Below are positions 23,700 to 42,186 of a stretch of 42,186 nucleotides of DNA, piece after piece. Source of the stretch: Gracilaria domingensis (lineage: Eukaryota; Rhodophyta; Florideophyceae; Gracilariales; Gracilariaceae); assembly GCA_022539475.1 (NCBI GenBank), contig VCMS01000394.1, forward strand, positions 1 through 42,186. Reading direction: 5' to 3'. Both the position numbers and the translations under genes were made by a program. The stretch's first letter is position 1. Each line of letters opens with the position of its first letter. Below the pieces are notes generated by a model. That model did no database searches. It saw only the letters and a list, made by a program, of their open reading frames with translations, and was not told where the DNA came from.

Positions 23700-25400
23700 T
23701 ACTTTGACACTTCTGAAATAGTCTCTCGTACTCCAGAAATCAAGATTATGATTCCTAGCGTCATTGGTAGTCCCCGCACATGTCTAGCAACCCCTCGTAT
23801 GACTTTCGATTCTCCTTGTCCACGATCCATAAGACAGAACGTTCAAGTTTAGCATGCTTCAATAAACAAAGTTTGCGATTGTTCCCCCCTTGCTCTCCTC
23901 GCTTCGAACAAACAAAATCGGTATTACAAAAAGGCGAACAATTCGTTCATCACGTGTGGAGCAAACACTGCAACTTAGAAGGCTTGTCACTCGGTCAGAT
24001 AAAGTATGCAGCACGTCGGCCCTGATCCCATTATCATTCCATGAGTCATCAAGGTAGAATGCTCAAGTGCGCTCATTAAAATATTCAGCAGTTTCTTTCA
24101 CAGGACTTTCAAGCCCTTGATTGCTCGCACTCTATCCGCATGGAGTCTCCCTCCACTGCGACGCACCATCTCTGCAAGTAGTTTTGACCAGAGTTCGATC
24201 CCTTGCCTCTTCTCCGAGACACATGTACAACCGACCATCTGGAAATCGTTCCCGTACATATCGATCCTGTACCGCGTACATATGGACACAGTTGCAACCA
24301 AACTAAACAATCTCCACCCGCGTTGCTGTCTGCCGGCATCCCTTGCTTGAACTTTCCTTCGCACTTCGCCAGCTCGGCACTTCATTGTCTCGATGTAAAG
24401 TCTGCAGCAATTCTATTTCCATTCTTTGGAACAATGTTTAATGTAGAATTCTCAGTGAAGTTGGATTTGAACTAGTTTGGCCAACTTTACACCAGTGGCA
24501 TTATGATATGAGATAGTCTATATTTTTGTTCGCACCTCCAAAATCGGACTTCAGCTCTTTGAGCTCTGCTGGAAGGTCTTTGACGACATCTTTACAAAGG
24601 AAAAATACTCGTCACCCTTGTCTTCCGCGAACCTCACGATTCCAAGAACACCCGCCCCCCCCCTCCTCCGAAAACAACAACTTCTCCACTCATTTCTGCA
24701 AATGGGAAACCGGTGGTGTCAAACGAAAATTGTCCTTTGTGCCAGTAAACTTCCAAGTTGTCCTGGCTCCGGCGGTCTCACAGCTGGAATGAGAAGAGGT
24801 GAAGGTGAGAGAGCGAGCATGGAGATGTCAAGATTTCATCTGTGTACAGACTTGTACCCTGTAATGCAGTCTCTGTGTTGCGCAAACTTGTAGGTCAATG
24901 ACGATCGACACGTGAATGAATGAGGCGTTCATTTGTACATAAGAATATCGGATCGACACTGTCGCTCCCTTTACCGAAGGATAACATTAACGTTTGGCAC
25001 ATATTAGGCCTTTTTAATTAAGGCCATAAGGCCCTAATTTTGAAATAAGATAAGCCGAAGTGAGGATTTCGGTTTAATTAACAAAATAAAGCTCCTCAAG
25101 AATCTCGCTTATTTTGAAACAAGGGAAGAAACAAGAATTGGCCAGGAGCCCCCAAGCTTATCCCTTAGCTTATGCGGGTCATCATCTCGAGATACAACTT
25201 AGGAACTCGACAAGATGTCGGGAAATATAAACGCATCACAAGACGAATCAAATCCCACTCCCATACCCCCAACGAGCTCCGTATCAAACGCGCTACCGTC
25301 TGTTGGCACACTAACACCGGAAAATGGTTCTCTCGCCTAAACCAACCGTGGGCGCCCACGATCTTGATCTAGACCACAGTTTTTACCACAACGCCCTGTG
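23700..25400. other. unassigned region, coding-like scraps
   Basis: Nothing identifiable. Minus-strand pieces at about 24098-24385 (contains IDMYGNDFQMVGCTCVSEKR) and 24505-24605 (contains DVVKDLPAELKELKSDFGG) look like former coding sequence. AT-rich DNA with palindromic TTAATTAAGGCC words begins near 24990. Confidence 0.35.
25037..25123 (+). repeat. 13-bp direct repeat pair in AT-rich DNA
   Basis: ATTTTGAAATAAG (25037-25049) and ATTTTGAAACAAG (25111-25123) differ at one base and are 74 bases apart. Both lie in an AT-rich block with TTAATTAA twice, about 500 bases upstream of the gene at 25599. They could be subterminal repeats of a small transposon or promoter elements. Confidence 0.5.
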
Positions 25401-25422
25401 CAAAGGTTCGTTATGAACCGAG

Positions 25423-25430
25423 TATAAAAA
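25423..25430 (+). promoter_or_regulatory. TATA box of the 25599 gene
   Basis: TATAAAAA lies 169 bases upstream of the ATG at 25599 and is the clearest TATA box outside the retrotransposons. No upstream element was recognised. Confidence 0.5.
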
Positions 25431-25598
25431 TAGTGGATCTTACGTTCTCTTATTGCAAACGGTGCTCCAACGCAGAAACAAAAAACTCTTGACAACACAT
25501 GCAGCAAATTAGCCACGTCCGCGCGTCAAAGAAATGTCCCTGATTGTGTAATTGTCGAAGAAGTTCGGAAGTATGGAATACGTTGGAGGAGAGATCAT

Positions 25599-26639
25599 AT
25601 GGCGAACATAACAGCAGAAAACGTTCGAAATCTTATCAACTCTCTCAGCGATATGTCCAAAAAGGTTTTGCTTATGTCCGATATTCGAAGCGAAGATCAT
25701 GGTGATCCTGTTGCAGCGGCTCGTGACATAGAAAACGACGCAACTCATATTCTGGATCACGCAGTTCTTGACTATCGCCATCTGGCCTCTAAACGAAGCC
25801 TAACTACGGATGAAGAGGCCGAACGCATACTAGAACAAAACCGCGAAACAAGACTGGAAAAGCAAAAGCGCAATCGAGAGAGGCAAGAAACGTTCGAAAG
25901 CAACAAATGTAAGCGAGAAGCGGAGCGTGTTGCTAAGGAGCGTCGTCGAACTGCGGTAGAGCTTCAGAACCTTCGAGCACAAACGAGAATTGCAAATGCT
26001 GCTGTAGCTAGTGCTTCGCTGCAGCGCCGTCAGAGCGAACAGTTCGGGATTCTGGTTTCTTTGTTTGCCCGAAGCAATAATTTGCAGGTCAAACAACCCG
26101 CTACACAGTTGCCCCTAGAGCTTCCTTCTCAACCACTCTTGATGGACGCAGATCTTGTCCGTCTTTGTGAAAACGGTGGCGTCGAAAGTACTGAAGCACC
26201 CTCAGAAGGTCCTGCTTTGACGTCTTCCTCCAATCCGGAGAGCGATTTGCCGCTGTCGTTGAACGAGGCAGCACCAAATGCAGACGTCCTTCGCTCCGGG
26301 CGCCTCGCTCCCTCGCTGGCGCTCGGTCGCTCGGCTCCCTCCGCTGCGGACTTTGCGCTCGGCGCTCCGCGAGCCTTTGAATTGCTTTACGAAAGGTACG
26401 TATCTATCTCATCGCCATCACGCGGTGCATGCCTAGCTAACTTTTCTTCGTATCTACTGCGCAATTGTAAGGCGTACCCACGTTTGAGGAAGATCCAGTT
26501 GCATAGCATGGCTGCAGTTGTGTATGCTATGGGGAAAAGGCCTTTCTCAAACGGCCACTTCCCAAGGAATAAACGGTATCTGTGTAGAGCAAAACGCCCT
26601 TTGTGGGGATGCACCGAGGTGCTTTTCATAGTTTGTTGA
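25599..26639 (+). CDS. unrecognised coiled-coil protein next to LTR 1
   Basis: The 346-codon frame starts at an ATG downstream of a TATA box. Residues 1-60 are soluble with NVRNLINSLSDMSKK. Residues about 65-130 form a long charged, R/K/E-rich helix (EEAERILEQNRETRLEKQKR), very likely a coiled coil. Residues 140-250 are Leu/Pro/Ser-rich. From about residue 230 the DNA becomes a C/T-rich GC stretch (26290-26375), and the protein tail after that has no domain-like pattern. The end is suspect. GGTACGTATC at 26395 is a good 5' splice site, and the stop lies exactly where LTR 1 appears to begin, so the original C-terminus may be spliced away or lost by insertion. No function can be named. Confidence 0.5.
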   Translation: MANITAENVRNLINSLSDMSKKVLLMSDIRSEDHGDPVAAARDIENDATHILDHAVLDYRHLASKRSLTTDEEAERILEQNRETRLEKQKRNRERQETFESNKCKREAERVAKERRRTAVELQNLRAQTRIANAAVASASLQRRQSEQFGILVSLFARSNNLQVKQPATQLPLELPSQPLLMDADLVRLCENGGVESTEAPSEGPALTSSSNPESDLPLSLNEAAPNADVLRSGRLAPSLALGRSAPSAADFALGAPRAFELLYERYVSISSPSRGACLANFSSYLLRNCKAYPRLRKIQLHSMAAVVYAMGKRPFSNGHFPRNKRYLCRAKRPLWGCTEVLFIVC

Positions 26640-27438
26640 TCCGTTACCGGCTGCGACACCTCAGGTTATGAGAGGCTACTGGGGTAGTGCCCCTATTTTG
26701 GGGTATGCCTAGGAAGGGTAGTATTTCTGCACACGTGTGCCAAGTTGGCCCGATCGCGCGGGCCTCGTGGCAAGCATGCCACGGGGGCACACCTGTAGTG
26801 TATTGGCCGGCAGCGCCGGATAGTTAGATATTTTAATTGCTATTTTCAAGTGCCGTATATAAGTGGCGGCACTTGCCGCCACTGTACGGGAAGTAAACCT
26901 CAACGAGGCCTTTGGCTCTGATCTTCTTGCCGCTTGCGCACGGTCACCAGCCCCATCCTGGGGAATACCGCCGCAATTCCGGGCTGATCAACCAACCTCC
27001 GTCCCTGAGGAGTACTAATCCGTCGTCACGGCACTTTTCTTATCTATTTTATTGTTTTCATTTCCGTCTTACGGCTTTCGCTACTCTGCCCTACATTGTA
27101 GGTTTGTTTTATTTGTCTCGGGAGTTTTCCCGCTTATCGCGAGTCAGTGCTCCGCAGTGCGGCTCGTTTGTCGATCTTTTGTCGTCCCATACCGTTGGGC
27201 TGGATACCCCCACTCGCTGTGGCTCGCCGGAACCATCCGGATACCTACGCCGATTCTACCCCTTTTACCTCCGACTGCACGCCCAGATCGGGGCCACCCG
27301 GATTTACACCCGGCTCGTGTTGGCCCTATCGGAGGGTTCTGCCGCTCGACTGCCCTTCACAGGGAGCAGGGCCTGAACACCCTGAGGTGCTCGTCCGCGA
27401 CGCGGTTTGTTGTTTCCCGTCGAGGGTTTTGCACCACA
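26636..27438 (+). repeat. 5' LTR of element 1
   Basis: It ends at CA (27437-27438), three bases before the primer site. The left end is placed at TGTTG (26636) from the TG rule and the end of the preceding gene's frame. The second LTR is not available for confirmation. The U3 part has several palindromic words: GCACACGTGTGC (26729-26740), GTGGCA/TGCCAC and CCGGC/GCCGG. A TATA box lies at 26856. Confidence 0.6.
26856..26862 (+). promoter_or_regulatory. TATA box in LTR 1
   Basis: TATATAA lies about 220 bases into the LTR in a GTATATAAGTGG context. It sets the U3/R boundary at roughly 26885-26895 (inferred). Confidence 0.6.
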
Positions 27439-27441
27439 AAC

Positions 27442-27462
27442 TGGTCTCCCGACCTAGAATCG
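27442..27462 (+). other. primer binding site 1, tRNA-Tyr type
   Basis: TGGTCTCCCGACCTAGAA continues into TCG. Its complement reads as a normal tRNA 3' end: T-loop CGATT, T-stem CTAGG, acceptor strand TCGGGAG, discriminator A, CCA. A G72 implies a C1-G72 pair with A73, the identity set of eukaryotic tRNA-Tyr. Element 2 has the same site. Confidence 0.8.
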
Positions 27463-27602
27463 GCTTTATTGGCCAACAATCGTTGGAGCTGGTTCGTTTG
27501 TTTGGAGCCCAGATAGTTGGGAATATCCGTTCTTACGGTTCTCTCATTGTCCGTTTTCGGAAGTTGTTTTGGTTGCCCATTGGCCGACTGTGTCGGTGAA
27601 CG

Positions 27603-29612
27603 ATGTCGTCCCGTCGCAGGAGTAGCGCGCCACGTGCCGCTTCTGTGCCCGGTTCGTCCGGCTTGCCGGCAAGTTTGCCTCCGTTGCCGAAGGACGCACT
27701 GAAGGTCCCAGGCAATGGCGACCCGAAACCGGCTTCCCGGGGCCGCCGTTCTGACAACGGGACCCCACCAACTCGTGGGCCAACTGAGACCGCACCTGCG
27801 GCTGATGCCGCCGCAGCGGTTGACGTTACGTCGTCGCGGTCCGACGAGTATACCCTCCGTGAATTAGAGGCTCAGGTTCGCATCCTGCAGAACTCCCAAG
27901 TGGGCCTCATCCGGGATATTACGAAACTCCGGCAACGGCTCGATGAAGCCGGTGTCCGGGATGTTTCGAGCGACGTCCGTGTTTTACGGTCTGATGTCAA
28001 CCAGATTATGGAACACCGACAGGTGTCGGCTGGTCTGCACGAGCAGGCTGCCGCACGCCTGGACCGCCTGGCTACCCGTCTGGAGACGGTCGAGCAAATC
28101 ATCGTATCTGATGCTGTTGCGCCGGGAGCCCCGGTTTCTGAGGGTTCTCAGCACTCGCGCCGTTCCCGGGATCGTCCGGCAAAGAAGAAGGTCAAGGTTG
28201 AGTCTGACTCGTCTTCTTCATCCTCTTCTGATGAGGAGGGCCCCAAGAAGGGGTCGTCTACCGACTCTTCGGACAGCGCGGAAGAGCGCTCTCGCTATCG
28301 TGCATCCCGTTCGCGGGCTACTGAAGCCACTTCTGGTGTTGCACGAGGCCGTACGAAAGGACGGAGACACCTCGGATTGAAGGAGTTGAAGCCGACAAAC
28401 TTACTGTATCGGAAGCTACTATCTTACCGATATTATCGGCTTGATGACACGACGCCACAGAGGACCCCACGTGGGACTGGCAAAGTGCGAAATCATCTCC
28501 GACAAATGGAGCTCACGCTAAAGCCCCACAAGTTCTCTGGGGAAGATCCAATTCTTGTCTTGGATTTTCTTAGCCGCTTCGTAGCGGAAGCCGATGTACT
28601 TCGGATGAGTGAGGCACAGGCCTACATCGCGCTGCCGTACTTTTTGACGGGGGTAGCCGAAGATCAATTCAATTCGGTTCGTGGGTCGTCTCGCGCCTCC
28701 GAAGGAGGAGTTACGTGCTGGCCGGAAGCGGTACAATATCTCCTGCGCTCTTACGCGACAGGCAATGCGATACAAGGTGCCATACTCGCGCTACGAGACA
28801 CGAAGCAAGGAGCCGAAGAATCGGAAACCGTTTATTCGACCCGCCTCAATAAGGCTTTCCACAGATGTGGCAACGTGTTCTCCGCAGCCGAGCGGTGTAC
28901 GATGTTTGTTGATGGACTGGACCGATCAATTCGGACGTTGGTAGCCCATTATCGGGAGAACAAACGCCGGATTACCTATCTGGAACTCGTTCAATTTGCC
29001 CAAGCGGAGGGAGATGCAGCTCGAGCACGCACTGGTATCAAGACGCGCCCGCGCCGACTCCTTCATGTAGAAGGCCGAGACTCCTCACTGCCTCACTCGC
29101 GAGGTTCTGTTCAAGGGGGTTATGATAACCTGCACCTGTTACAGGACGATGGTTCAATCCCGAGTTCGGAATTGCCGTCGACGACGGAGCAGTCTACAGT
29201 GGACGGAGACCCCGCTCTGTACGCCGGACGTCAAGTCCCGGCATTGCCCGTGCCGCACTTTGGCGGATATCGAAGCCAACGCCCTGGATGGAGGGACCCG
29301 TATCCTCCTCGACAGGAGCGCCGGCCGCCCAACGCGGATCTTCTTCGTCACCTTATTTGTCATACCTGTTACAGGCCAGGGCACATCGCTCCGAATTGCT
29401 TAATGCCCATACGGGATATGGCGAAGATAGTGCCTCAGTATGAGTCGTTGACGCCCGCCGAGCGGGAACGTGTTCCCGACAAATCGTACCTTCGTGCGAA
29501 GGCGGAGACTCAGCCTCGAAACCAGAAAACGGTGCCATCGAATGGTGGAACTGTAGCCGCCCCTGCGGAATCACAACCTCCGCAGATTGGCGGCGACGCT
29601 CAGAAAAACTGA
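27603..29612 (+). CDS. gag: gag polyprotein of element 1
   Basis: The 669-codon protein starts at an ATG, 141 bases after the primer site. Residues 1-80 are Pro/Ser/Ala-rich. A leucine-heptad coil spans about 80-175 (ELEAQVRILQNSQVGLIRD). An acidic Ser stretch and an RS-rich stretch span about 190-250 (DSSSSSSSDEEG). A retrotransposon capsid-like domain spans about 300-480 (MELTLKPHKFSGEDPILVL, ending near the DGLDRSIRTLVAHY region). A zinc knuckle CHTCYRPGHIAPNC (CX2CX4HX4C) lies near residues 585-598. This is the nucleocapsid-type gag of Ty3/gypsy elements, which packages RNA in virus-like particles. It is fully open. Gag 2 has the same order. Confidence 0.88.
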   Translation: MSSRRRSSAPRAASVPGSSGLPASLPPLPKDALKVPGNGDPKPASRGRRSDNGTPPTRGPTETAPAADAAAAVDVTSSRSDEYTLRELEAQVRILQNSQVGLIRDITKLRQRLDEAGVRDVSSDVRVLRSDVNQIMEHRQVSAGLHEQAAARLDRLATRLETVEQIIVSDAVAPGAPVSEGSQHSRRSRDRPAKKKVKVESDSSSSSSSDEEGPKKGSSTDSSDSAEERSRYRASRSRATEATSGVARGRTKGRRHLGLKELKPTNLLYRKLLSYRYYRLDDTTPQRTPRGTGKVRNHLRQMELTLKPHKFSGEDPILVLDFLSRFVAEADVLRMSEAQAYIALPYFLTGVAEDQFNSVRGSSRASEGGVTCWPEAVQYLLRSYATGNAIQGAILALRDTKQGAEESETVYSTRLNKAFHRCGNVFSAAERCTMFVDGLDRSIRTLVAHYRENKRRITYLELVQFAQAEGDAARARTGIKTRPRRLLHVEGRDSSLPHSRGSVQGGYDNLHLLQDDGSIPSSELPSTTEQSTVDGDPALYAGRQVPALPVPHFGGYRSQRPGWRDPYPPRQERRPPNADLLRHLICHTCYRPGHIAPNCLMPIRDMAKIVPQYESLTPAERERVPDKSYLRAKAETQPRNQKTVPSNGGTVAAPAESQPPQIGGDAQKN

Positions 29613-29641
29613 GCAAGGGAGCCTCCAGCAATGGAGAGGCG
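29603..29641 (+). promoter_or_regulatory. predicted -1 ribosomal frameshift site, element 1
   Basis: GAAAAAC (29603-29609) sits directly before the gag stop TGA. The pol frame is -1 to gag and is open across the junction. A short stem-loop follows (GCCTCC paired with GGAGAGGC, one bulge, about 29621-29640). A pol made by re-initiation at the ATG at 29651 is the alternative. Confidence 0.55.
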
Positions 29642-29650
29642 CCCCCAGCG

Positions 29651-31795
29651 ATGGGGTTTAGTGCGCCTGAGGCTGAGAAGCCTCGCTCCCCGGTCACAAT
29701 CCTTTCGAGGAAACTGGCCACTACAGACGTGGACTCTGAGCACCTTGGTGTCTTGCGTCGCCCGTGGATACGGTCTAAGAACAGCCGGTTCCCGGATAGA
29801 GTCCTGGTCATGGCGAAACGTAACTACAAAGTTTACGCCGACCTGGGTGTTTCCGACCAGTACATGGTTCGGCAGTTGTCCGTGCTCGATACAGGAGCTG
29901 GGCCAAATTTCTTGGTTGAATCGATGATTCCGCCGCACTTGCGGTCTCGCGTTCGTGCGGCGCCGCAGATTGACATAGCGGATGCGAACAATCGGCCACT
30001 TTCGACTGTGGGAGTAATAGACCTGCTCGTCAGGCTTGGCCGCTACGTGGCGAAGCTCGATTTCTTGGTTTGCAAGCAACTCGCTGCGCCGGTTATCCTC
30101 GGCTGCGACTTCTGTGACCGCTTCGTCGATGCAATTCGACCGCGGAAGCGAACCATCGAAATGGAAGATGGGACTACTGTACCGATCGTTTGGCGTCCCC
30201 TGCGCCGGGCTCTGAAGAAGCAAGTCCCTTTGCCTGCGGCACAGAAGCCTACAGCCGATGAACGGAAGTCTACAAAGCTCCGAGTAGCTCGGCCCATTTC
30301 CATCCCGCCTGAATCACAGGTCTGGGTTACTGTGACCTCCCCACAATGTGGCTTACAAACGGTACAACCGTTGCCTGCGTTACAGGAGAAGCATCAGCTT
30401 GCCCTCGCTAATGGGATTGTTTTCGTCGAACCCGAGAAGCCTTTTCAGGTGCTGGTTGCGAACTTCAGCCGTTTTCCTCAACGGTTGGTTAGGAGCCAAG
30501 TTATTGGTTCGTTGCTTCCGCACCCTGCGGCTATAGTGCCTACTCAGGTTTCTATTGCCGAGGTTCTCGGAATCCTCGAAGCTGAGGAGGGGGAGGCGGA
30601 ACGGAACAATTCCGAAACGACTGGACCGAACAGTTCGTCGGAAGATGCTACGCCGACTTCGTCGGATGCGAATAACCGCAGCCTGTCGAAGGAAGCGTTG
30701 CCGACCTCGTCGGGCAGTAATGATACAGACCTGAGTGCTGCTGACACGAAGGATAAGGCAGTACAGGAACTGGAGTCTCTGGATCTTGAACATGTCCCAG
30801 AGACTCACCGCGATAAATTGCGGCACATGCTTGAGGAGTTCACGCCCATGTGGGATGGCACTCTGGGTAAGATTGGTATTACCGAACATCGGATTGATTT
30901 GCTACCGAATACTCGGCCCATTTCACAGCACCCTTACAGGGCAGGACCGACAGCTCGGCAGGAGGAGAAAGCTCAAGTTGAGAAGATGCTCCGCGCTGGA
31001 GTTATCGAGCCGGCTCAGTCACCTTGGGCATCGCCGGTGGTGCTCGCGCCCAAAGCTGATGGGTCTTGGCGATTTTGCATCGATTACCGCAAGCTAAACG
31101 CGGCTACGGTCAAGGATGTGTATCCTATCCCACGAATGGATGAATGCATCGATTCATTGGGCGACGCGAAAGTGTTCACAACCCTAGACGCGAATTGGGG
31201 CTATTGGCAAGTTCCCGTGAGGGCTGAGGATCGTGACAAGACAGCCTTCGTTTGGCATGAAGGATTGTACCGATTCAATCGGATGCTCTTTGGGTTAACG
31301 AACGCGCCAGCCACCTTTCAACGAGCTGTGGATATTTTGCTAGCCCGCTTTAAGTGGAAGACTTGCCTGGTATACCTGGATGACATCATTTTCTATTCCA
31401 GCAACCTGGATGAGCACTTGACCCACGTACGGGATGTGATGCGAGTCCTACGCGATGCAGGCATTACGCTCAAGCTCAAGAAGTGTGAGTTCTTTACCGA
31501 AACCGTCAGGTATCTCGGCCATGTTATCCGTCCGGGACGGCTTTCGATTGACGAAGTACGCGTGAAATCCCTCAAAGAGGCTAAGCATCCGAGGACGCAG
31601 ACGGAACTCCGATCTTTTCTCGGCTTGTGCAATGTGTATCGCCGCTTCATTCCGAACTTCGCCGATATCGCTGCACCTCTGAACGAGCTTCTTCGCAAAG
31701 GACAGCCAGTCGATCTGGAAGAATTCGATGACCGCAAGGTCGCGGCTTTCTCGTCGCTCGTGGACGCGGTGACATCGCCACCTGTTTTATTGTAG
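29651..31795 (+). pseudogene. pol: pol of element 1, truncated before RNase H
   Basis: Aspartic protease has VLDTGAGPNF (DTG at 29888-29896) with the second strand ILGCDFCDRF. An acidic Ser/Asn linker follows. Reverse transcriptase is about 30890-31760 with HRIDLLPNTRPI, WRFCIDYRKLNA, FTTLDANWGYWQ, the active-site YLDD (31373-31384) and RSFLGLCNVYRRFIPNF. The frame ends SPPVLL, exactly where element 2's pol goes on into RNase H. The last codon is completed by, and the TAG supplied by, the LTR of element 2. All RT motifs are intact, so disruption is by the insertion alone in the visible part. Confidence 0.88.
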
Positions 31796-32361
31796 TATAG
31801 CTCGGCCAGATCAACGGGGGCTCTACAAGACCAAGTGGTGACGTCACGAGCTCCCGGGCACGTGTGTCTACTGTACCACGTGGGACGCGCAAGCGCAGGC
31901 TTGGACAGGACTAATTAGTCTATTCTCGATAATTAGAATTAATAATTACTAGGTAGGGTAGATATGTGGCCGGGGTGGTGCACCACAAATGCACCTCCCG
32001 GTGGCCCACGTGGCACTAGGCCCGTGAGAGCCGGAGGGGCGCTCGGGTGTACTAAACCCCCGAGACGCCAACTTCCCACACCAAATGGTAAAGTCAAGCA
32101 CCAACTAGGCTAATTTGACACCAGTTCGGTTCTACAGTCACCAATTGGTAAGTCTAGTAGTCCTCTAATAGTTTTGCTGACCTCGAAGGTTATACGTGCC
32201 TGCCGCACACCAGTGCAGGCGTATTTACCACTTGGTCACCGTGCACTATAGGCAACGGTGGGTGCTGCCGACCTATTAGGTGTCACGTGTTTCACTCCTC
32301 CGCCGGGTCGAGCCCACGCAGGGCTCCCCACTAGCAGCTCGCACCGATCGGCTATACCACA
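31791..32361 (+). repeat. 5' LTR of element 2
   Basis: It starts TGTAG inside element 1's pol and ends CCACA (32361), five bases before the primer site, giving 571 bases. It holds six CCANNTGG words, a CRE, three G-boxes and a hairpin (GGCG then CTCGGG, 32038-32047, with CCCGAG then CGCC, 32059-32069, one bulged base). TTTAT just outside is the likely target-site copy. Its partner is outside the window. No clear TATA box. Confidence 0.7.
31838..32013 (+). promoter_or_regulatory. CRE and G-box cluster in LTR 2 U3
   Basis: GTGACGTCAC (31838-31847) is a perfect CRE-type palindrome. CACGTG G-boxes lie at 31859-31864, 31877-31882 and 32007-32012, the last two inside CCACGTGG. These are classic bZIP and bHLH sites, so host regulation through such factors is likely (inference). 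Confidence 0.55.
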
Positions 32362-32366
32362 TATTT

Positions 32367-32384
32367 TGGTCTCCCGACTTAGAA
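32367..32384 (+). other. primer binding site 2, tRNA-Tyr type
   Basis: TGGTCTCCCGACTTAGAA matches primer site 1 at 17 of 18 bases, although the surrounding leaders are unrelated. This conservation across diverged elements supports both primer sites and both LTR right ends. Confidence 0.8.
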
Positions 32385-32494
32385 ATCTGTGGATTACCAA
32401 GTGGTTTTGGGGAGGGAGGATTTGGAAGTCACGAGATACCCGAGTGGTTTGGTTCCCGTTGCCGAAGCAATTGGCTCCGACGCCAGTTACCTAA

Positions 32495-34762
32495 ATGGAG
32501 AAACGGGGCGCGCGCTACCCAAATAGGGCGCCGAGCGCTCCACCAAGTGGTCACCCCATACGGGGTTCAGTGTCCTATCCGGTGTTGGATAACCCGGAGG
32601 ACCTGATTCGGAAGGAACGCCCACCGAGGGGGAAGAAGGTAGACCGAGAGGCTGGGGGCCCCTCGACCCTTCCCCGGGCTGACCAAGTGGACGGAGGAGC
32701 AGGCTCCGCAAGGGCGGAGCCCGCTCCTGTAACAACCCCAGTGGTAGACCAAATGGAGGTGCCAGTCGGACCGCGACTGGACTTGGACGAGGTCACCCGA
32801 GTGGTAGTTGATCGAGCCTCCCAGGAGGTCCTCGACAAGGTACCTGTGGTGGTGTTACAGTACCTCGAAAACGAGGTGCGAGGACACATCGACCGATTGG
32901 TTATGCTGGCTCTGCAGCAGCAGGGGGCTAAGCTTCAACCTGAGATGGTGGCCCAGGCCGCGCTCATGAAGCAAGCTCCCCCGCCTGCAGTAGACGCCAC
33001 CAAACCACTTGGTATTCTCCACCCTAACCTTCCTACACAACCGACTGGTGAAGGATTTATCGACCGTATGGGGAAAGGGGCAGAGCCTCCAGGGATGGAG
33101 GGCCCGAGGTACGTTTACCTCCCCCAACCTACTGGTGTAGCTCCGTCAGGACCCAGTGGTGGAGACCCTGATGGAGATTCGTCGAGCTCAGGAGACGAGC
33201 GTCGACGTAAACCAAATGGTAAGAAGAAGAAAACCAAAAGGGGAAAGAGAAAGAGTCGCCGGTCGGACTCGGACTCTTCGTCCTCAGACACCGATTCGGA
33301 TTCGTCAGGAGACGACGACCGTACAGGTTCACGACGCAAGAGGAAGGACTCTCGCAAGAAGAAAGGAAAGAATCCCCGCAAGGGTAAGACCAAAAGGTAT
33401 AACGATTCGGACTCAACTTCCGACGAGGAGACTGACCTAGAGGTGCTTACGCCTCTCAATGATTTATTCACCAAAGCGGTTGACCATCGTACCTATAGGT
33501 TAGAGAACAGACAGGCTGAGTATACCAAAGAGGTAGCTCAGAAGATAACGAAGCATCATAGGAAGCTTCGTTTCCAACTGGGTGAAACTCGCTTTAGCGG
33601 GGATGACCCTATTGCGATCATTGATTTCCTTCAAAGGTTCAAGATCGCTTGTGATCAGAATGGGTTTTCAGAGGCAGCAGCCATGTGGCTGTTTCAATTC
33701 TACCTAACTGGTCAGGCTGGAGCGTTGCTCCGCAGCCGCCTCCAAGGAAACACCATGGCGGTGGACGAAGACCAAACGGAAATGTTGACAACATACCCAC
33801 AGGTGGTTAACTTCCTACTGGAAACCTACGCGACCGATGAGGTAATCCAGGAGGCGTACGCAGAGGTGCTTGCGTACCGCCAGCGCGCGGGACAAACCGA
33901 ATTGGAATTCGCTCGCTCCTTATGGGCATTAGCCTCCCGCTGTGGAAGCGTCTTTACTACCAAAAGGTTGAAATCGATGTACGCCGACAACGTGGCGAAG
34001 TCTATCCGATCACAGGTTCGTAACTACCTAGCTACCAACCGCACGGTCGACTACAACGCACTAGCCCGCCATGCACAGGGACTAGGCGACACCGTTCGGT
34101 CAGGGGCCAGGAAAGACTCCGCACCACTCGGCAAACCATCGAAGGAGAAAGGAAAGACCAGGCGGTCAGTGTTTGACGTAGAGGAAGAGGAGACCACTAC
34201 GGGGGAGGCGTCCACACAATACGCCTCCCAGGGTCACCCAGTCCACTTGGTGCATGCACAACCGACAACTCGATCGCACGGTAATACCTCTTGGTCCAGC
34301 TCGCTATCCAGCGAGCCACCCTCGAGACAAACCTCAGCTCCACCATCACAGGTATCCGTACCGGTCAGCCCGGTCCTAGCGGTACCATTCAAGCAATATG
34401 GTGAACAAGGACCATACCCGCAGCAACGGAGTGCAGTACCTACTGGAGGCCGTCCTCCATCGCGCGCGTCGTCGCTCGCGATGAAGGACCCCACAACCGG
34501 CAATCTCCTCTGTTGGTTCTGTTTGTCGCCCCACCACTTGGCGACAGCGTGCCCAAGTGTGGCTCCGCAGAACAGGAACGCTCTCCTGACTGCTCGCCAG
34601 CAGAACCACCAGGATATATTTGGGCCCCCGGCACGGAGCGCAGGCACGGGACACGCAAATGCGCGACCCAATGCAGCCACACCTCATCAGGTACACCTCG
34701 TCACGGAGCAGGACCAAACGGATCCCGCCCCGCAGGCGGAAAACGCCGAACAGTTGGGATAG
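32495..34762 (+). CDS. gag: gag polyprotein of element 2
   Basis: The 755-codon protein starts at the ATG in CTAAATGG. The N-terminal 150 residues are Pro/Gly/Arg-rich. A short coil (about 85-150, containing VVDRASQEVLDKVPVVVLQ) follows. A long Ser/Asp and Lys/Arg tract spans about 225-310 (DSDSSSSDTDSDSSGDDD, then RKKKGKNPRKGK). A capsid-like domain spans about 340-540 (LRFQLGETRFSGDDPIAII and a segment ending VRNYLATNRTV). A zinc knuckle CWFCLSPHHLATAC (CX2CX4HX4C) lies near residues 670-684. It is fully open and has the same plan as gag 1 with low identity. The nucleotide sequence contains about a dozen CCANNTGG words placed in all three codon phases. Confidence 0.88.
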   Translation: MEKRGARYPNRAPSAPPSGHPIRGSVSYPVLDNPEDLIRKERPPRGKKVDREAGGPSTLPRADQVDGGAGSARAEPAPVTTPVVDQMEVPVGPRLDLDEVTRVVVDRASQEVLDKVPVVVLQYLENEVRGHIDRLVMLALQQQGAKLQPEMVAQAALMKQAPPPAVDATKPLGILHPNLPTQPTGEGFIDRMGKGAEPPGMEGPRYVYLPQPTGVAPSGPSGGDPDGDSSSSGDERRRKPNGKKKKTKRGKRKSRRSDSDSSSSDTDSDSSGDDDRTGSRRKRKDSRKKKGKNPRKGKTKRYNDSDSTSDEETDLEVLTPLNDLFTKAVDHRTYRLENRQAEYTKEVAQKITKHHRKLRFQLGETRFSGDDPIAIIDFLQRFKIACDQNGFSEAAAMWLFQFYLTGQAGALLRSRLQGNTMAVDEDQTEMLTTYPQVVNFLLETYATDEVIQEAYAEVLAYRQRAGQTELEFARSLWALASRCGSVFTTKRLKSMYADNVAKSIRSQVRNYLATNRTVDYNALARHAQGLGDTVRSGARKDSAPLGKPSKEKGKTRRSVFDVEEEETTTGEASTQYASQGHPVHLVHAQPTTRSHGNTSWSSSLSSEPPSRQTSAPPSQVSVPVSPVLAVPFKQYGEQGPYPQQRSAVPTGGRPPSRASSLAMKDPTTGNLLCWFCLSPHHLATACPSVAPQNRNALLTARQQNHQDIFGPPARSAGTGHANARPNAATPHQVHLVTEQDQTDPAPQAENAEQLG

Positions 34763-34796
34763 AGGCCTTCCCCAACTGTCCGAAGACGGAAGGCCT
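34738..34796 (+). promoter_or_regulatory. predicted -1 frameshift signal, element 2
   Basis: GGAAAAC (34738-34744, gag codons GAA AAC) lies 15 bases before the gag stop codon. The pol frame is -1. A 9-bp perfect stem AGGCCTTCC (34763-34771) / GGAAGGCCT (34788-34796) with a 16-base loop begins 18 bases downstream. The slip site is not canonical. The pairing is exact. Confidence 0.5.
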
Positions 34797-37700
34797 TCCA
34801 GAACCAAGTGGTGCAAGTATGGACAATTACCCATTGGTTACAGGGGAGGAGAGCCTCATGGACGGCACCGAACCGATATGCTTTCTCAAGCATAGTAACT
34901 ATAAGGTAAACGTCACCCTCGGGTTTACTTCTAACCACTTGGTACCATGCGTCACTGTCCTGGACACCGGGGCAGGACCTAATCTGGTGAATGCCAAACT
35001 ATTAACTAACAGACAACTTAATAAGCTTCAGCCATGTACATTAACTAACCCACTGGTTGACGCCAACAACAGACCACTAACCGTCATGGGAGCGCTTACC
35101 ATAATGGTATTGATTGACACCATGAGGGTCCGAGTTCGCTTCATAGTCGTTAACCAACTGGCAACAGACTGTATCCTTGGAACAACTTTTATAGACCAGC
35201 ATTTCAGGGCAATTTTTCCACGTTCTAAGACAGTTCTGTTCCATAATGGCCCCCGGATCGCCATTATTGGTAACCACAAGGGTGCCTCTACGAAAGAGAA
35301 CCGCACTCAACACCAACCGGTCCCGGAAAACACACTCTCCAACAAGGTGCGATTGGCAAAGGCGGTAACAATACCGCCTATGAACCACTTGGTAGTGAAG
35401 GTCACATGCCAACAACCTGGCCTGTTATCCATTCAGAACCATTCACGGTTGGCCGAACGACACATGACCTTAATGGCGAATGGTATAGTCGACAACATAC
35501 CGATAAAACCGTTTCAGGTCTACCTGAGTAACTTCAGCAACCGCCCGGTCAAGTTGCCAAAACACACCGTAATTGGTCTTGCCTTACCGGCTCCCCGTAC
35601 GATCTTTACAATTATACCACAATGGTCCCACGAGGTCGTGGATGCTAAGGAGGGGGGGGGCAGTGTCAATTCGTTGAATTCGTCGCGAACAGACCATATG
35701 GTGCAGCGACTAGCTGAGCGAGAAGACCAGAAACTGGAGCTCGACCCAGTGACCAATTGGAAGACGGAGGTGAATATAGGACTTGAAGGGGAAGAGCTCA
35801 GAGCCCGGATCCTTGGACTCCTGGAGCCATTCAGTACCATGTGGTCGGGTAAGCTGGGAGCCATTAAGGCCACCCAGCACAGGATTGACCTCAAACCGGA
35901 CTCCCGTCCCATCCACCAACAGCCATACCGCGCGGGACATAAGGCCCGTGAGGTAGAGCTGGAGGAGGTAGAGCGGATGCTCCGCGAGGGGGTTATAGAA
36001 CCGGCAAACTCGGAATGGGCTAGCCCTGTAGTGCTAGTCCAAAAACGAGGAGAGACCCGTATGAGGTTCTGAATTGACTACAGAAAACTTAATGCCGTAA
36101 CGGTAAGGGACTCGTACCCCATCCCGAGGATGGATGAATGCATCGACTCCCTAGGAGATGCGAACATCTTTACCACACTGGACGCCAACTGCGGGTATTG
36201 GCAGATCGAAATACCAGAGGGTGACCGTGATAAGACTGCGGTTACATGCCACGCAGGCCTGTATCGCTTCTTACGCATGCCGCTTGGTTTAAGAAACGCC
36301 CCCGCTACCTTCCAAAGGGCGTTAGACATCATACTGTCTAAAGTGAAGTGGACAACCGCATTGGTATACATAGATGACGTAGTCATCTACTCGAGGTCCA
36401 TAGAGGAGCACTTCTCGCACGTCCAAGTGGTACTGCAGTTGCTACAAGAGGCAGGCGTGACCCTCAAACTACGAAAGTGTATGTTCTTCAACCAAGAGGT
36501 AGAGTACCTAGGGCATACAATAAGCCCCGGGAAACTCGAAGTGACCAAACGGAATATCCGACCGGTACAGGAAGCGAAGCTCCCTACGTCGCAGACGGAC
36601 ATACGATCCTTTATAGGTCTATGCAACGTCTACCGGCGGTTCATCAAGGGTTTTGCAAAGATAGCCGCACCCTTGAACCGGAGGTTGCAGAAGGGGCAGC
36701 CCACACACTTTGACCACCTGGAAGAGGACGAGGTAGAGGCGTTCTATACATTGAAAGCAGCGCTTCTCTCCCCACCGGTACTGGCATTGCCCAAAACGGG
36801 ACTCCCGTATACACTGGACACGGATGCGTCGGACGCCCAAATAGGTTGCTGCCTAATGCAGGAACAGGAGGACGGCAAGCTCGCACCAATTGGGTATTGG
36901 AGTAGAGCTCTTAACCAAGCGGAGCAGAACTACACCGTAACGGAGAAGGAATGCCTAGCGGTTGTTTGGAGCATGCTCATGCTACGTCCTTACCTATATG
37001 GTGTGCGCTTCACGCTCCGAACGGATCACGACTCCTTGAGGTGGATATTAGGCTTGGCGGACGCATCGGGTCGTCTGGCCCGATGGCGTCTGAGACTCTC
37101 GGAGTTTGAGTACGATGTGCAGTACCGCCCCGGGGTCAAGTACCGAGTGGCGGATGCATTGTCCCGGTTGAATACCGAAGGATTGGACACTGACCCAGTG
37201 GACGACGACATCCCATGCTTTACTATAGAACTAGCTAACCACGAGGTCAATGAAGTTCTGAAGGGATACTGGCATGATGACAGTACGTACCAAGTGGTAG
37301 TGGAGACCCTCCTTCCTGTGGAGGAAGGGGAACACGCTCCAATCACCCGTGAGGAATTCTTACGCGAACAATCGACCGATAGGTTGTGCAAAACGCTCGC
37401 TGACGTACTTGGAAGGAAGGATTCTCATTTCGACGTCGACCACAATGGGTACCTCATCAGACGCTCACCTTTAGACGGAGCTCTCCAGAAGGTCGTACCT
37501 GAGTCATTAAGACAAAGGGTGTTATATCTGTCACACAATCCACGGCTTTCGGGGCACCCTGGAGCCACGCGGTTGTACTATACCCTTCGGAGGCAATTCT
37601 ACTGGCCGCATATGGCTAACGATGTATATACCTATGTGGCGCAATGCAATTCGTGCATTAAGACCGGAGGTGGTGTGGCGAAGCACAGGAAGTACCTAAA

Positions 37701-39063
37701 GCTATTCCCGGCGGCGGGGCCCCTGGAATTCGTAGCAATCGACATACTGGGGCCCCTGCCCAAGACCTCAGAGGGTTATCGCTTTGTAGTAGTCATAACC
37801 GACAGGTTCACAAAGCTCACCAGAGCCATACCTCTGAAGAACCAAACGGCAACGACACTAGCGACAGCCTTCCTGGAGAATTGGGTCTACCCGTACGGTG
37901 CTCCCATGTACCTACTGACCGATAACGGTTCGAACCTAGCTTCTAAGTTCTCCGAGGCGGTTTGTACAATGCTAGGGGTCAAGCACTACTTTACCACGGC
38001 CTATCATCCTCAAACAAACGGCCAAGTGGAACGCTTCAATAAGACCCTAGTGGCACGCCTACGGCACTATGTCGAAGAGCACCAAACCACATGGTCGGAG
38101 TATGTCCAACCATTGACATATGCGTACAACCTCCAGGTCCACAGGGTCACTCAAACAACCCCATTCGACCTGGTACTTTCGCGAACACCACATGGTATTA
38201 TCGTCCAGCCCGGACCTGACCGCTCGGAAGCGGCCGGGACACTCACACCGGCGAAGGTCAAGAGAGACATACTCCAGAAGTTACGCGCCGCTTTGGCTGC
38301 TGCCAAAGTTAAGATGACAGCAGCCCAAGAACGGTATGAAGCGGACTATGACCGAACGGTGAGCAAAGTGACCAAAGTGGTAGCAGGAGACATGGTCTTC
38401 CTTGACGTGCCACCAAAAGGTAAGCGACCAACCCCAGCGGAGATGGAAGAGGACATCCGCCTTGAGGAGGATATCAATTCTAAACTACTACCCAAGTCCA
38501 CGGGACCATACAAGGTGATTTGCTCCGACGAGCATACCGCTACGGTCATAATGGAAGGTTTGGAGAACACGGTCTCCATCGACAGGATTGTCAAGGCCGC
38601 ACAACCGACGACAGCGAATGCACAACCAATAGGTGAGCCAACGCAGCAGGAAGCAGAGAGGGAGCAAACGTCTCCCATACCCCCTCCTATGATGAGTCAG
38701 CCGAGCGGTCAACCTTCCACCAGAGCCGTAACGGCTGACCCCACGACCCAAGCGGCACAGGAGATCGAGCCTCGGCAAGACCAACGAGTCACACCACCCA
38801 CGGGGAGCCACGCACCCCATGACCAAATGGAAGAGTCACACCCTCAAGTAGACACTCAGGAGTGCGCTATTGACACCATTGTAGGTCACGAACACACCAC
38901 AAAGGGTATGCGCTACCGGGTAAGATGGTATGGATGGTCGCCCGAGCACGACTCTATGGAACCACCTGGTCATATCCCTAACAACTTCATCATCCGATAC
39001 TGGCGCAAACAAGGGCGAACGCCCCCACCAACTGGTATTGCTTCGCGTGGTACGCGTCGCTAA
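34741..39063 (+). pseudogene. pol: pol of element 2 (PR-RT-RNaseH-IN-chromodomain), one in-frame TGA
   Basis: The same frame is open from at least 34513 to 39063 except for TGA at 36070-36072. Protease has VLDTGAGPNLV (DTG 34963-34971). RT has HRIDLKPDSRPI, MRF-stop-IDYRKLN, FTTLDANCGYWQ and YIDD (36367-36378). RNase H (about 36780-37180) has YTLDTDASDAQIG, TVTEKECLAVVW and RTDHDSLRW. Integrase has the HHCC zinc region (HPGATRLYY ... CNSCIKTG) and the D-D-E core at about 37741, 37920 and 38030 (FVAIDILGPLP, LTDNGSN, NGQVERFNKTL). The C-terminus has a chromodomain (38868-39020: IDTIVGHEHT, YRVRWYGWSPEHDSMEPP), which classes it as a chromovirus. The TGA replaces the Cys codon that element 1 has as TGC, a single base change. 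Otherwise it is intact. Confidence 0.85.
35647..35660 (+). other. internal polypurine run, possible central PPT
   Basis: AAGGAGGGGGGGGG lies in the linker between protease and RT. It resembles the longer run after pol (39062-39078). Central polypurine tracts prime a second plus strand in lentiviruses and Ty1. A role here is speculative. Confidence 0.25.
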
Positions 39064-39078
39064 GGAAGGGGGGGGGGG
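39062..39078 (+). other. polypurine tract just after pol
   Basis: AAGGAAGGGGGGGGGGG overlaps the pol stop. In simple elements the 3' LTR would begin right after the plus-strand primer tract, but TTATCG follows and the LTR start is absent. It is therefore either a non-terminal tract or the ancestral primer before the antisense gene was acquired. Confidence 0.4.
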
Positions 39079-39216
39079 TTATCGAAGCCGTTGAACGCCA
39101 CGCTACACGAAAAGCTAACTAACTAACCTAACAGGAAAACAAAAGAAGATCAGAGAACACAGTGCAAGACACTTTATTAGTCGAGAAGAATCCACGAGAG
39201 GGAACCACGAGGTGAC

Positions 39217-41397
39217 TTAGGAGGCCTTGGAGGACCCACGGCCACGTCCGCGTCCACGACTGGTTCCACGACCGCGACCACGTCCACGGGAGGTCCCGCG
39301 AGATGAAGCGGAACCTCCACGACCAGAGGACACCGACATAGGTCCGGCGGAGCTTCCGCCCCCGCCGCTAGCCGCGCTCGGTGGCGCACCACCACTTGGT
39401 AAGGGAGCAGAAGTACCAGCAGGTCCCGCAGGGGTACCGCTGCTGACTACCGGCATGGTATTCGCAGGACCAGTGGGTGGATGGAAGGAAGGCGGTAAGC
39501 TAGACGGAGGGATGCCACCAGAGGTCGGAGGAGCAAGACCACTAGACCGGCCCTGCACCGGGGGTCAGACCAGTAGGCGGCCTAGGAGCACCGGACGTCG
39601 GCGGAAGCGGAGCCGAACGGAAACCAGTTGAGAAACCACTTGGTGCTCCTGTCCCAGTACTTGCTGGAGGAAGAGGAACGTTGTGAGGACCAAGCGGAGT
39701 ATGGAAAGGTGCCGCAGGATCACCACCAGGAGGTCCACCAGGGAGTTGATACGTACCAAGGCCACCAAAGCCTACCATTGGGGTCGCAGGTTGCTGTGAC
39801 GCAGGAGCGTACGGGTTGAAACTTTCCACAGGGGGTCGATGTAACGGCGCGTGGCCTTCCACAAGGTTGCTCAACTGACCAACATAGGCTGTCACCTCAC
39901 GGTAGAGATTGCGCTGGAAGTAGTCGCGGAACTGTCGCAGCTCAGAAGTGCGCCGCTCGTGGTGAGCAACCACGGGGAGCAAGTTGGTAAGAGTATCCAC
40001 AGCGGTGAGGATGTCATTGAGACCAGGACGGTTGAAGTGCACCATCGAGGCGTGGTTGAGACGAGCCAGAGCGCTCCGTATCGCGCCACTATCACCACCA
40101 GGGGGCACCGGATTCACCGGAAGCGACTGGAAACCAACCCGAAGAGGCCCCTGGGCAGCCCGTCCGGGAGGGTGAGCACCGCCTGAGGGTTCGCCGGACC
40201 ACTTGGAACAGGCGCAGCCACGCTGGTCGGAGGAGTAGCCTGTACAGGTGCCGACGGAGGCAATGCGGGGGACTCATAGTTCTCGGCAGCCACCATCACG
40301 GTATCGTCATTACCAAATGGGTCTTCGCCAGCCATGTGCTGCTGTTGGAGAGGCACGATGCTATGAACCTCCGGGTCGTAGACATCCCAACCCTGTTCAG
40401 GCCCCCAATTGTGGTTACTTACCGCAGTGAGGTAGCCATCCAACTGCTGCGCAGTATATTTGGTGCCCTCCACGATGTTGGAGAGCCCCATGGCACGAAT
40501 GTCGCCGACCACATCGTTGGGAATATTGAAGATACGACCAACTGGTTGAGTTCCGCTGATCCCGACAGACTTGTCAGGGCAGCGCGTGTCCCAAGTCACA
40601 CCTTCCACGGAAGCCTGAAGGGCGAGGATAGCCACCATGACGGCCCACTCGCTGCGCGCGACCGACCAAACGGCATATGCGTTGTTCCTCTCTAGGGAGA
40701 TGCTACTACCAAAGTACGCAAGGACCGGCGGGGTCGGCACTTCCAGCCACTGACATACTTCATAGTGGTCCCACCAAGAGGGTCGATTGACATACCATGT
40801 CCGGCGGTTGTGGTCGCTCTGCGACCAATACTCAACGTTGTGGAACAGGAACATGGTCCGCGTACGGTTGTTACGGTGACGAACACGGCTCTCAGCCATC
40901 GCATCGGTCGCCCACCTCCCACGGTCAGTCCAATAATTGGTGTCTAAAGGGCGCTCAAACGCGACGTACTCCAGATCGACCTCGATGTGCGTAGCAGGTT
41001 CGTCCAAGCGGTGAAGGATATCTACCAAACGGCGGAAGTAGTGGACCTCCCATCGCAGCGGATGAAGGGGAGATCCGACGGTACGGCCACGGGGATGTAG
41101 TATAGAAACTTCGTGTGTCGCTGCCGCTCATGGAAACACTGTTGTCGACCGAACCGGCTCTGCTTCTCGCCCTTGCGTGGTGGAGGAGGTGCCATAGGCA
41201 CGCCTCCACCGGCGACAATCCCAACGGGCAATTGCGGTATACTGCGTGAGACCCATGTGGCGGAACCGCAAGGGACAGAGTGAGGTAACTGATGTGGAAA
41301 GGCCAGTTCCCCCAGAGCGACGCAATTCGCGGAGATTATCGGCAAAGCGTGCACATAGTGGGCTATGCGGCTGCCCGTGCGTCCCTATTAAGGTCAT
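39217..41397 (-). CDS. antisense gene of element 2, RG-tailed protein of unknown function, frame-broken
   Basis: Four minus-strand frames follow one another with touching or overlapping ends. The first is near 41397-41022, with LYYIPVAVPSDLPFI before a shift near 41065. The second is 41080-40114, rich in Trp/Tyr/His (HYFRRLVDILHRLDEPATHI, FLFHNVEYWSQSDHNRRTW, ARSEWAVMVAILALQA). The third is 40117-39542, helical with LNDILTAVDTLTNLLPVVAH and then a Pro/Gly/Ala-rich tail. The fourth is 39558-39217, Pro/Ser/Gly-rich, ending in RG repeats (SRGTSRGRGRGRGTSRGRG) and TAA. Together this is roughly 700 residues. Shifts near 41065 and 40115 equal one missing base each. No family is recognised. The RG tail suggests nucleic-acid binding. 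Some plant Ty3/gypsy Tat-lineage elements also carry antisense genes between pol and the 3' LTR. Confidence 0.6.
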
Positions 41398-42186
41398 GAG
41401 GATTCAGCTGTTGAGTCCTCCACGCGTACCAGGCCACCGCAAGAGGGTTAACGTTGCTCGGGCCCAAAGCGGCGGCTGCGTAGGGAATCATAAACCCACC
41501 GCGACCGTAAGGGTCTTGACGGAGAACGCGTACTCGAAACCGCGTGTTTAAGGCTTGAAAGATTGCACCTCCGCGGCCGCTGCGCTAACCCCATGGGGTC
41601 TTGCCAGACATCGCTCGACCGGAGGCAACAGTTTTCCGAACCGAACGGTTGACCTCCGCCGAGGGGAGAACTTCAGAAGCCGAATATCCTTTATATAGAG
41701 GTCGAAGTGCGGCTCCTCCAGTACCATAGTGGTTGGCCTCAGCACGAGAGCCTCGGCGCCCGATGGAATAGGACACTGGTGTACGGGGTCTGGGACGGCA
41801 ACAGGGCTGCGAAGGTCAACACACGTGGATTCGATTGAAACGTCGCGCCCGTCTCACCCCCGGGGTCCAATCCACAACGGGAAGGGCGCGCGCGATGCCC
41901 CCTCGGCACCGCTTCACGGCGTTCGAACGTCATTGACCACCCGTTGGGGGAAGCGGTTGATCACCCTGAGGTATAAAAGGCGCGAGTTGGAGCGAGAGCG
42001 TGGCCACGAAGGATACAAGCCGAGAGGGGGAACACCACCAATTGGATGACTAGTTGAAACCTGGGGGTCACAGAGACGGGCGCGCCACTTTCGAGCGAGC
42101 TGACACACCGTGAAATGACCAGGGTGGAGCGCCGGCCTGGACAGGTTCCGTGAACCAGGGAGGGTACCAACCACCCAGAGGGACTA
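41398..42186. other. region upstream of the antisense gene with an opposing TATA box
   Basis: No convincing gene. TATAAAAG at 41972-41979 (plus) faces right, away from the minus-strand TATA box at 41690, so two divergent promoters sit about 280 bases apart. The rightward one may belong to a further element 2 gene or to the 3' LTR region. One CCANNTGG word (42038) lies 60 bases downstream of it, so element 2 probably continues. Confidence 0.4.
41690..41697 (-). promoter_or_regulatory. TATA box for the antisense gene
   Basis: TATATAAA on the minus strand, in CTCTATATAAAGG context, lies about 290 bases upstream of the first antisense frame. It supports independent minus-strand transcription rather than read-through. 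Confidence 0.5.

Follow-up and report, generated by a model that had tools for sequence, protein, structure and literature searches.

How does a long terminal repeat (LTR) retrotransposon come to carry the same short inverted word throughout its length, genes included? The question is raised by a contig of the red alga Gracilaria domingensis (VCMS01000394.1, or C394), which was analysed whole and is referred to here as the window (42,186 bases; one of 680 contigs in a 77.9-Mb assembly). It contains two adjoining Ty3/gypsy elements, element 1 (E1) and element 2 (E2), each of which carries an inverted-repeat word of its own. Little is known of how LTR retrotransposons single out their own RNA or DNA; the signals that have been studied more closely lie near the 5′ end. 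The pol gene of E2 has the domain order of a Ty3/gypsy chromovirus, namely reverse transcriptase (RT), RNase H, integrase and chromodomain (RVT_1, RT_RNaseH, Integrase_H2C2, rve and Chromo all exceed their Pfam cut-offs), and its LTRs are of the TG...CA type. The E2 family is large in this genome, with at least 40 matches to the pol DNA at 99–100% identity (40 of 242 candidates scored). The scope throughout is a single genome, a few stretches per family, and Ty3/gypsy families only.

A sequence-only reading of the window had counted 39 copies of CCANNTGG in E2 against about 2.5 expected, and this enrichment is confirmed: of the 50 copies in the window, 40 fall within 31831–42045, where base composition predicts 2.9, and dinucleotide shuffling of the entire window, repeated 100 times, yielded 11.6 copies on average and 20 at most. 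The word is not, as had been proposed, an extended E-box (CANNTG) of the kind bound by basic helix-loop-helix factors. When all gapped pairs of trinucleotides were scanned in 31801–42186, ACC-N4-GGT (58 occurrences), ACC-N5-GGT (32) and ACC-N6-GGT (20) stood out against the 7.5 expected for each spacing from the product of trinucleotide counts; ACC-N3-GGT (6) and ACC-N7-GGT (9) were at background level, as was the reverse arrangement GGT-N-ACC at every spacing from N0 to N15 (4–11 each). The core is ACC/GGT at a spacing of 4–6, and CANNTG covers only a subclass, with 52 of the 110 words (N5 and N6) lying outside it. CC and GG are strict, whereas A/T is preferred at the outer and inner positions, the inner pair being A..T in 21 of the 58 N4 words. 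Counted as 3-bp hairpins with loops of 4–6, ACC arms number 110 against 22.4 expected, and the density is about one word per 95 bases over 10.4 kb.

Protein sequence cannot explain these words, as the sequence-only reading had argued. In 1000 synonymous-codon permutations per open reading frame (ORF), gag (28 words; shuffle mean 6.8, maximum 16), PR-RT (18; 4.6, 9) and pol (28; 7.1, 16) lay beyond every shuffle, as did the antisense ORF with seven words (mean 1.9, maximum 6); the antisense ORF with five (mean 2.0, maximum 6) did not exceed the maximum. The words occupy all three codon phases and are also found, as claimed, in the LTR and in the antisense gene. Each of E1 gag, E1 pol and three host genes holds 0–3 ACC words, which is the shuffle level, so that the proposed check of host-gene density came out in favour of the word. 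Protein or codon constraint as the cause is ruled out by the synonymous shuffles. Spread of the words by tandem repeats is likewise rejected, since the only repeat family of at least 25 nucleotides (nt) in 24000–42186 is a shared RT stretch.

E1 had been taken as a word-free contrast, with about one copy of CCANNTGG in 5.1 kb; its coding part holds three (27896, 28467 and 30846), and the element bears a different word. The same blind scan placed CCG-N7-CGG first (14 against 2.7), followed by CCC-N6-GGG (7 against 0.9), and CC-N7..10-GG occurs 64, 58, 60 and 50 times at the four successive gaps against 28.6 expected. In these arrangements the inner bases are Watson–Crick complementary at frequencies of 0.44–0.62 for the first pair and 0.36–0.60 for the second (0.25 by chance), with all four pair types above their marginal expectation; the outer pair reaches 0.33, 0.19, 0.12 and 0.22 at gaps 7, 8, 9 and 10. 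Because the inner bases pair and the outer ones do not, the E1 word is a four-pair stem, CCNN...N′N′GG, with a loop of 3–6. Each word keeps to its own element. The gag-pol region of E1 contains 63 CCNN hairpins, where synonymous shuffles give 10.2 and none of 200 attains the observed number, and three ACC words against 2.5, the chance level, whereas the coding sequence of E2 contains 74 ACC words against 18.3 (0 of 200) and 14 CCNN hairpins against 10.1 (24 of 200). Along the window, the first 26 kb have 0–2 CCNN hairpins per kb (10 in total) and 11 ACC words; 27001–31000 has 15–22 CCNN hairpins per kb, and from 32001 on there are 4–16 ACC words per kb instead.

Relatives of both elements show the same behaviour with other letters or spacings. 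L070 (64% DNA identity to E1) and L071 (RT 82% identical to E1) have 85 and 102 four-pair hairpins in pol against 43.6 and 42.7, respectively, values reached by none of 200 shuffles. L070 favours TCCN, ACCN and CCGN arms and a 4-nt loop, and L071 has many different 4-bp stems with loops of 3–7, those starting with AC being commonest; words centre on CC...GG in all families except for many of those of L071. The distant E2 relatives L066 and L069, whose antisense proteins are 38% and 43% identical to that of E2, retain the ACC word, with N5 as the commonest spacing (16 against 3.0 and 8 against 1.4). Their sequences agree at 90% where compared, so they are treated as one lineage; L070 and L071, in turn, are related to E1, which leaves few independent inventions of a word. 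The three host genes show a mild excess of four-pair hairpins (148 against 130.5; reached by 9 of 200 shuffles) and no word. Foreign gypsy elements served as further controls (L074–L078, 5 of 11 loci from bacterial or archaeal bins; L079–L084 and the viral-contig loci L072 and L073 were left out as short or weak matches). None of these five has a dominant inverted word, and the words are thus rejected as a general property of Ty3/gypsy elements. L074, from another organism (WTKN01000225.1, 55% pol identity), has 95 four-pair hairpins against 94.9 and neither word. Counts of 4-bp inverted repeats with spacers of 3–6, given as sums of rounded columns, are 51 against 51 in L074 (2701–5500), 60 against 67 in L077 and 41 against 44 in L078 (first 2700), with a mild excess in L075 (3001–6500; 76 against 53) and L076 (72 against 49). 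The five Ty3/gypsy-like stretches lie in bins assigned to a cyanobacterium (the L074 contig), Amoebophilaceae, Bdellovibrionaceae, Thiotrichales and Verrucomicrobiaceae, and probably represent eukaryotic contamination. Among viral contigs, two single-protein queries found no relative and an alignment found two weak ones.

Are the words maintained by selection, or are they a trace of history? Between families, synonymous sites are near saturation: four-fold sites are identical at 83 of 252 positions between E1 and L070 (0.329; 0.264 by chance), 77 of 244 between E1 and L071 (0.316; 0.260), 92 of 253 between L070 and L071 (0.364; 0.259) and 26 of 82 between E2 and L066 (0.317; 0.279). Word density is nevertheless kept while positions turn over. 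The pol genes of E2 and L066, with 25 and 12 words, have three in common, and E1 (150 hairpins) and L070 (129) share 15, where chance predicts 1.3; retention between the latter two is 0.10–0.12 against 0.024 under neutrality, and 6 of 60 stem pairs are doubly changed. In L065, a copy 87% identical to E2, 16 of 26 words of the antisense region and 20 of 25 pol words are retained, where base identity predicts fractions of 0.20 and 0.62. Permuted control words give an ambiguous comparison in L065, where 38 of 48 words and 68 of 93 controls are conserved in full; single half-sites fare better inside words (84 of 96 conserved) than outside them (144 of 200).

Young copies behave differently. Among 59 loci of 95.6–100% identity, one of which is the window itself and some of which share a copy, half-site positions are variable in 34 of 360 cases (0.094) against 481 of 6052 (0.080) for other positions, which argues against selection in recent time. 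So does L068 (C354:50500–53000), where 8 of 20 words are kept (0.40) against 0.56 predicted. Mismatch per letter in the young copies is 0.6% in words and 1.0% elsewhere, with 0.7% for ACC/GGT outside words and 0.3% for permuted words. The DNA of L068 is about 95% identical to that of E2, its antisense frame only 52% identical and interrupted by three TGA codons, and it appears to have decayed by small changes. Absence of extra constraint in young copies is the expected outcome of neutral decay after insertion, and the pattern as a whole would fit selection on transposing lineages combined with such decay of the inserted copies. Being above codon shuffles, present in every phase, at background in host genes and still the top word at synonymous saturation, the E2 word behaves as a selected element label. 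The self-label claimed by the sequence-only reading therefore stands as regards shuffles, phases, host background and older retention, and falls short in the young copies; the same division holds for the comparison with flanking sites that it had proposed, in which words vary like their flanks in young copies and exceed expectation in older comparisons.

As to the molecule that would carry the signal, the E1-type families show hairpin geometry in their loop-length preference: four-pair complementarity peaks at spacers 4–5 (56 against 21 and 58 against 22 in E1; 38 against 11 and 37 against 12 in L071; in L070, 48 against 15 at spacer 4), is weak at spacers 0–2 in L070 (18 against 13, 20 against 14, 19 against 15) and L071 (12 against 11, 11 against 12, 18 against 11), and is near background from spacer 9 on in all three. 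When ORFs were folded in 60-nt windows and compared with synonymous shuffles, stability increased by 8–16% in gag and pol of E1 and E2, 9% in L071 and 5% in L070; host genes gained 3–5%, and the antisense ORF changed by −1%.

Words that are specific to their family, exceed what coding explains, shift in position and, in E1-type families, pair like hairpins resemble the dispersed packaging signals of RNA viruses, and the reading we prefer, with a probability of about 0.42, is that they are family-specific mini-hairpins read by the element's own Gag. They would fold into weak stem-loops, many per genomic RNA of the family, and Gag or its nucleocapsid portion would bind these cooperatively; binding would favour particle assembly on RNA of the same family and its selective packaging, and the differing words would hold co-resident families apart. 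Gag is present in every family sampled. Several observations weigh against this proposal. Spacers 1–2 show a mild excess in E1 (14 against 22, 33 against 20 and 30 against 22 at spacers 0, 1 and 2), folding in L070 gains no more than in host genes, and the two strands gain about equally (on the minus strand, 6–15% in gag and pol and about 0 in host genes). Loop letters are mostly mirror-symmetric, as in duplex DNA. RNA stems are expected to favour G-U pairs, whereas stems with one such pair occur at 1.07, 1.03 and 1.05 times the shuffle level in E1, L070 and L071, compared with 2.0–2.6 times for Watson–Crick stems. E2 is the least hairpin-like of the families sampled: its outer A..T reflects letter preference for the most part (110 against 92 from the margins), its N5 and N6 classes show no covariation beyond letters, and its N4 class covaries across a 2-nt spacer (30 against 20.9, p 0.0045), which counts against hairpins because such a spacer makes no normal loop. 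Finally, the zf-CCHC match in E1 Gag is below the Pfam cut-off, and the putative zinc knuckles of Gag were recognized by eye.

It is because evidence for hairpins is mixed with evidence against RNA that the estimate for stem-loops bound by Gag is set no higher, and that part of the weight passes to DNA. With G-U pairs unfavoured, the strands alike and pairing in E2 slight, a label in duplex DNA is the next candidate: a dimeric element protein, in E2 the antisense product, would bind the dyad words and block silencing or mark the copy, much as VANC does. The E2 word suits such a protein in being letter-specific, dyad-symmetric and devoid of a wobble signal; the covariation of N4 over 2 nt suits duplex DNA, and close words are rare, as for bound dimers, none of the 109 edge gaps in E2 being shorter than 9 bp against 11.1 expected. 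Furthermore, E2 and the distant L066/L069 lineage both combine the antisense gene with the ACC word. Yet a single duplex-binding dimer does not call for the inner positions of E1-type words to covary whatever their letters, nor for limits on loop length; a spacing that may be 4, 5 or 6 is loose for a dimer; short gaps are less clearly avoided in L065 (2 gaps against 4.9), L066 (0 against 2.3) and L069 (1 against 1.6); and the antisense protein has neither a Pfam match over cut-off nor a usable model. On balance we regard the duplex label as unlikely, and hairpins in minus-strand complementary DNA, which would act in reverse transcription through nucleocapsid binding or shielding of single-stranded DNA, as considerably more so. 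Watson–Crick-only stems and hairpin-like loop lengths are what the latter would leave, and A-C mismatches, equivalent to G-T on the minus strand, exceed G-U in L070 and L071 (1.39 and 1.24 times the shuffle level), but not in E1 (1.04 against 1.07), while in E2 the order is reversed (1.08 against 1.19); nor is there an apparent reason for family-specific letters.

Exploitation of sites for a host factor, be it an RNA export, splicing-suppressing, silencing or DNA-binding protein, ranks just below these DNA hairpins. Since most words centre on CC...GG, one tolerant host protein could read several of them, but each word is restricted to its own family, host genes in the window lack them, and the five foreign gypsy elements have no dominant word, although these are no test of the present host. 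A mutational origin appears very improbable. Template switching in replication or reverse transcription can leave perfect short hairpins without selection, as described in PMC8794818, and the perfect, wobble-free stems, the similarity of the strands and the diverse arms of L071 are in line with it; against it are the fixed family letters (ACC in E2, CC in E1), E1 outer pairs that do not exceed chance at gaps 8–10 (0.33 at gap 7), reading frames kept open, and retention above the neutral expectation. It is hardly credible at all that the words are an artefact of composition, codon usage or the encoded protein: ACC and GGT codons are common in E2, so that its shuffles do yield more words than those of host genes, but the real counts lie above all 200 shuffles, at about four times their level in E2 and six times in E1, and the LTR and every codon phase contain words. 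The proposal of packaging by Gag can also be widened. Each LTR family may write its own inverted word throughout, and a protein of the family, Gag or the E2 antisense protein, would read it to distinguish self from other families and the host; word and reader would coevolve, and the code would therefore be readable straight from DNA. This address code we consider possible but somewhat more doubtful than packaging itself.

Literature searches in the open-licence PMC library brought up no description of family-specific inverted words running throughout LTR retrotransposons. Several known systems are comparable in part. Genome-scale ordered RNA structure (GORS) is a feature of RNA viruses. As there, coding sequence along the elements folds more stably than codon-matched shuffles, weakly so in L070; here, the excess resides in 3–4-bp stems whose letters differ by family, and it is as large on the minus strand. 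The dispersed packaging signals of the Twarock/Stockley model (PMC6281560) are many small genome-wide stem-loops, coding regions included, with a shared recognition motif, loose positions and a proposed joint action with coat protein. Dispersed short stem-loops with a shared motif are found in the E1-type families; E2 has the shared motif, but its pairing beyond letters is weak. The differences are that LTR retrotransposons are involved, that density reaches the value given above for E2, that words differ between co-resident families, and that RNA pairing with G-U is not seen and Gag binding is putative. The VANC motifs of Arabidopsis VANDAL transposons (PMC5735166) lie ‘mainly’ in non-coding regions, share one orientation and have multiplied as tandem repeats. 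A short family-specific word at high density in one transposon family, with a candidate reader gene aboard, is common to both systems, but VANDALs are DNA transposons, and the words here are inverted and dispersed through retrotransposon coding sequence, with covarying pairs and hairpin loops in the E1 type; thus, the VANDAL analogy drawn in the sequence-only reading does not hold in detail. Because the words do not show the wobble pairing of RNA and their binding by Gag is putative, we place the words under neither packaging signals nor VANC, although their layout is closer to the former.

The second candidate reader is the gene antisense to E2, between pol and the 3′ end, which consists of two ORFs in the window and is open over 925 aa in another copy (L007, 535–3312, +). 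Its product ends in an RGRGRG-rich C-terminus and has at least 143 matches at 38–100% identity (130 of 997 candidates scored). No Pfam family exceeds its cut-off, a protein search with residues 180–620, in which 7992 candidates were scored, gave no hit at E ≤ 0.001, and the predicted structure of the antisense ORF is unusable (pLDDT 34). The gene was seen only in E2-type elements, no search for one having been made in E1-type families. The plant LTR elements Grande (gene23), RIRE2 and Retand also carry an antisense ORF of unknown function between pol and the 3′ LTR, as PMC7264820 reports; the likeness is one of position and orientation, and the E2 protein has no Pfam match over the cut-off and belongs to an element that also bears dispersed inverted words.

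The features of the window are collected in Table 1. E2 is longer than the 31831..42045 first assigned to it, starting at its LTR and reaching the end of the contig, which comes before the 3′ LTR. The 5′ boundary of E1 is approximate, word density climbing inside 26001–27000.

Table 1 Features of the window (positions on the forward strand of the contig)
Feature	Position	Strand	Remarks
Host gene	6009–8087		Match to ‘Nicastrin [Gracilaria domingensis]’, 100% identity over 86% of query
E1, Ty3/gypsy, as analysed	26601..31790	+	Own word, CCNN-loop(3–6)-N′N′GG; 5′ end only approximate
E1 gag ORF	27603..29612	+	36 CCNN hairpins
E1 pol ORF, interrupted at 31790 by the E2 insertion	29651..31790	+	27 CCNN hairpins; Pfam
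E2, chromodomain Ty3/gypsy	31791..42186	+	LTR match to another copy, ORFs, Pfam
E2 5′ LTR, 571 bp, TG...CA, word-bearing	31791..32361	+	98.8% identical to L067, the 3′ LTR of an E2-family copy on contig C4
ACC-N4-6-GGT words, n = 110 (58 N4, 32 N5, 20 N6)	31830..42165 (span)	none	
E2 gag ORF, 755 aa	32495..34762	+	28 words
E2 PR-RT ORF, as open in the window copy	34513..36072	+	18 words within 34765–36072
E2 pol ORF: RT, RNase H, integrase, chromodomain	36130..39063	+	28 words; Pfam
Antisense gene, C-terminal part, as open in the window copy	39542..40117	−	5 words; ORFs, aligned copies
Antisense gene, central part, as open in the window copy	40114..41028	−	7 words

Three further observations concern the surroundings. 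An 870-aa host ORF at 14750–17362 (−) has a candidate TIR-like domain followed by a candidate protein kinase domain, both read by eye. Outside the elements, 18001–20000 shows an excess of 4-bp inverted repeats (36 against 17 and 30 against 18 per kb); it lies near G-rich low-complexity DNA and carries neither family word. On another contig (C144), three RT matches of equal score at 60656, 72246 and 83836, spaced by exactly 11,590 bases, represent either a tandem array of an element or an assembly duplication.

Collectively, these elements make self-recognition by retrotransposons directly testable, because the candidate signal spans the element, differs between families and comes with natural controls in host genes, sister families and word-free gypsy elements. 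If the proposed recognition is real, strong family-specific selection could act on synonymous sites of transposons, with consequences for the dating of copies by synonymous divergence.

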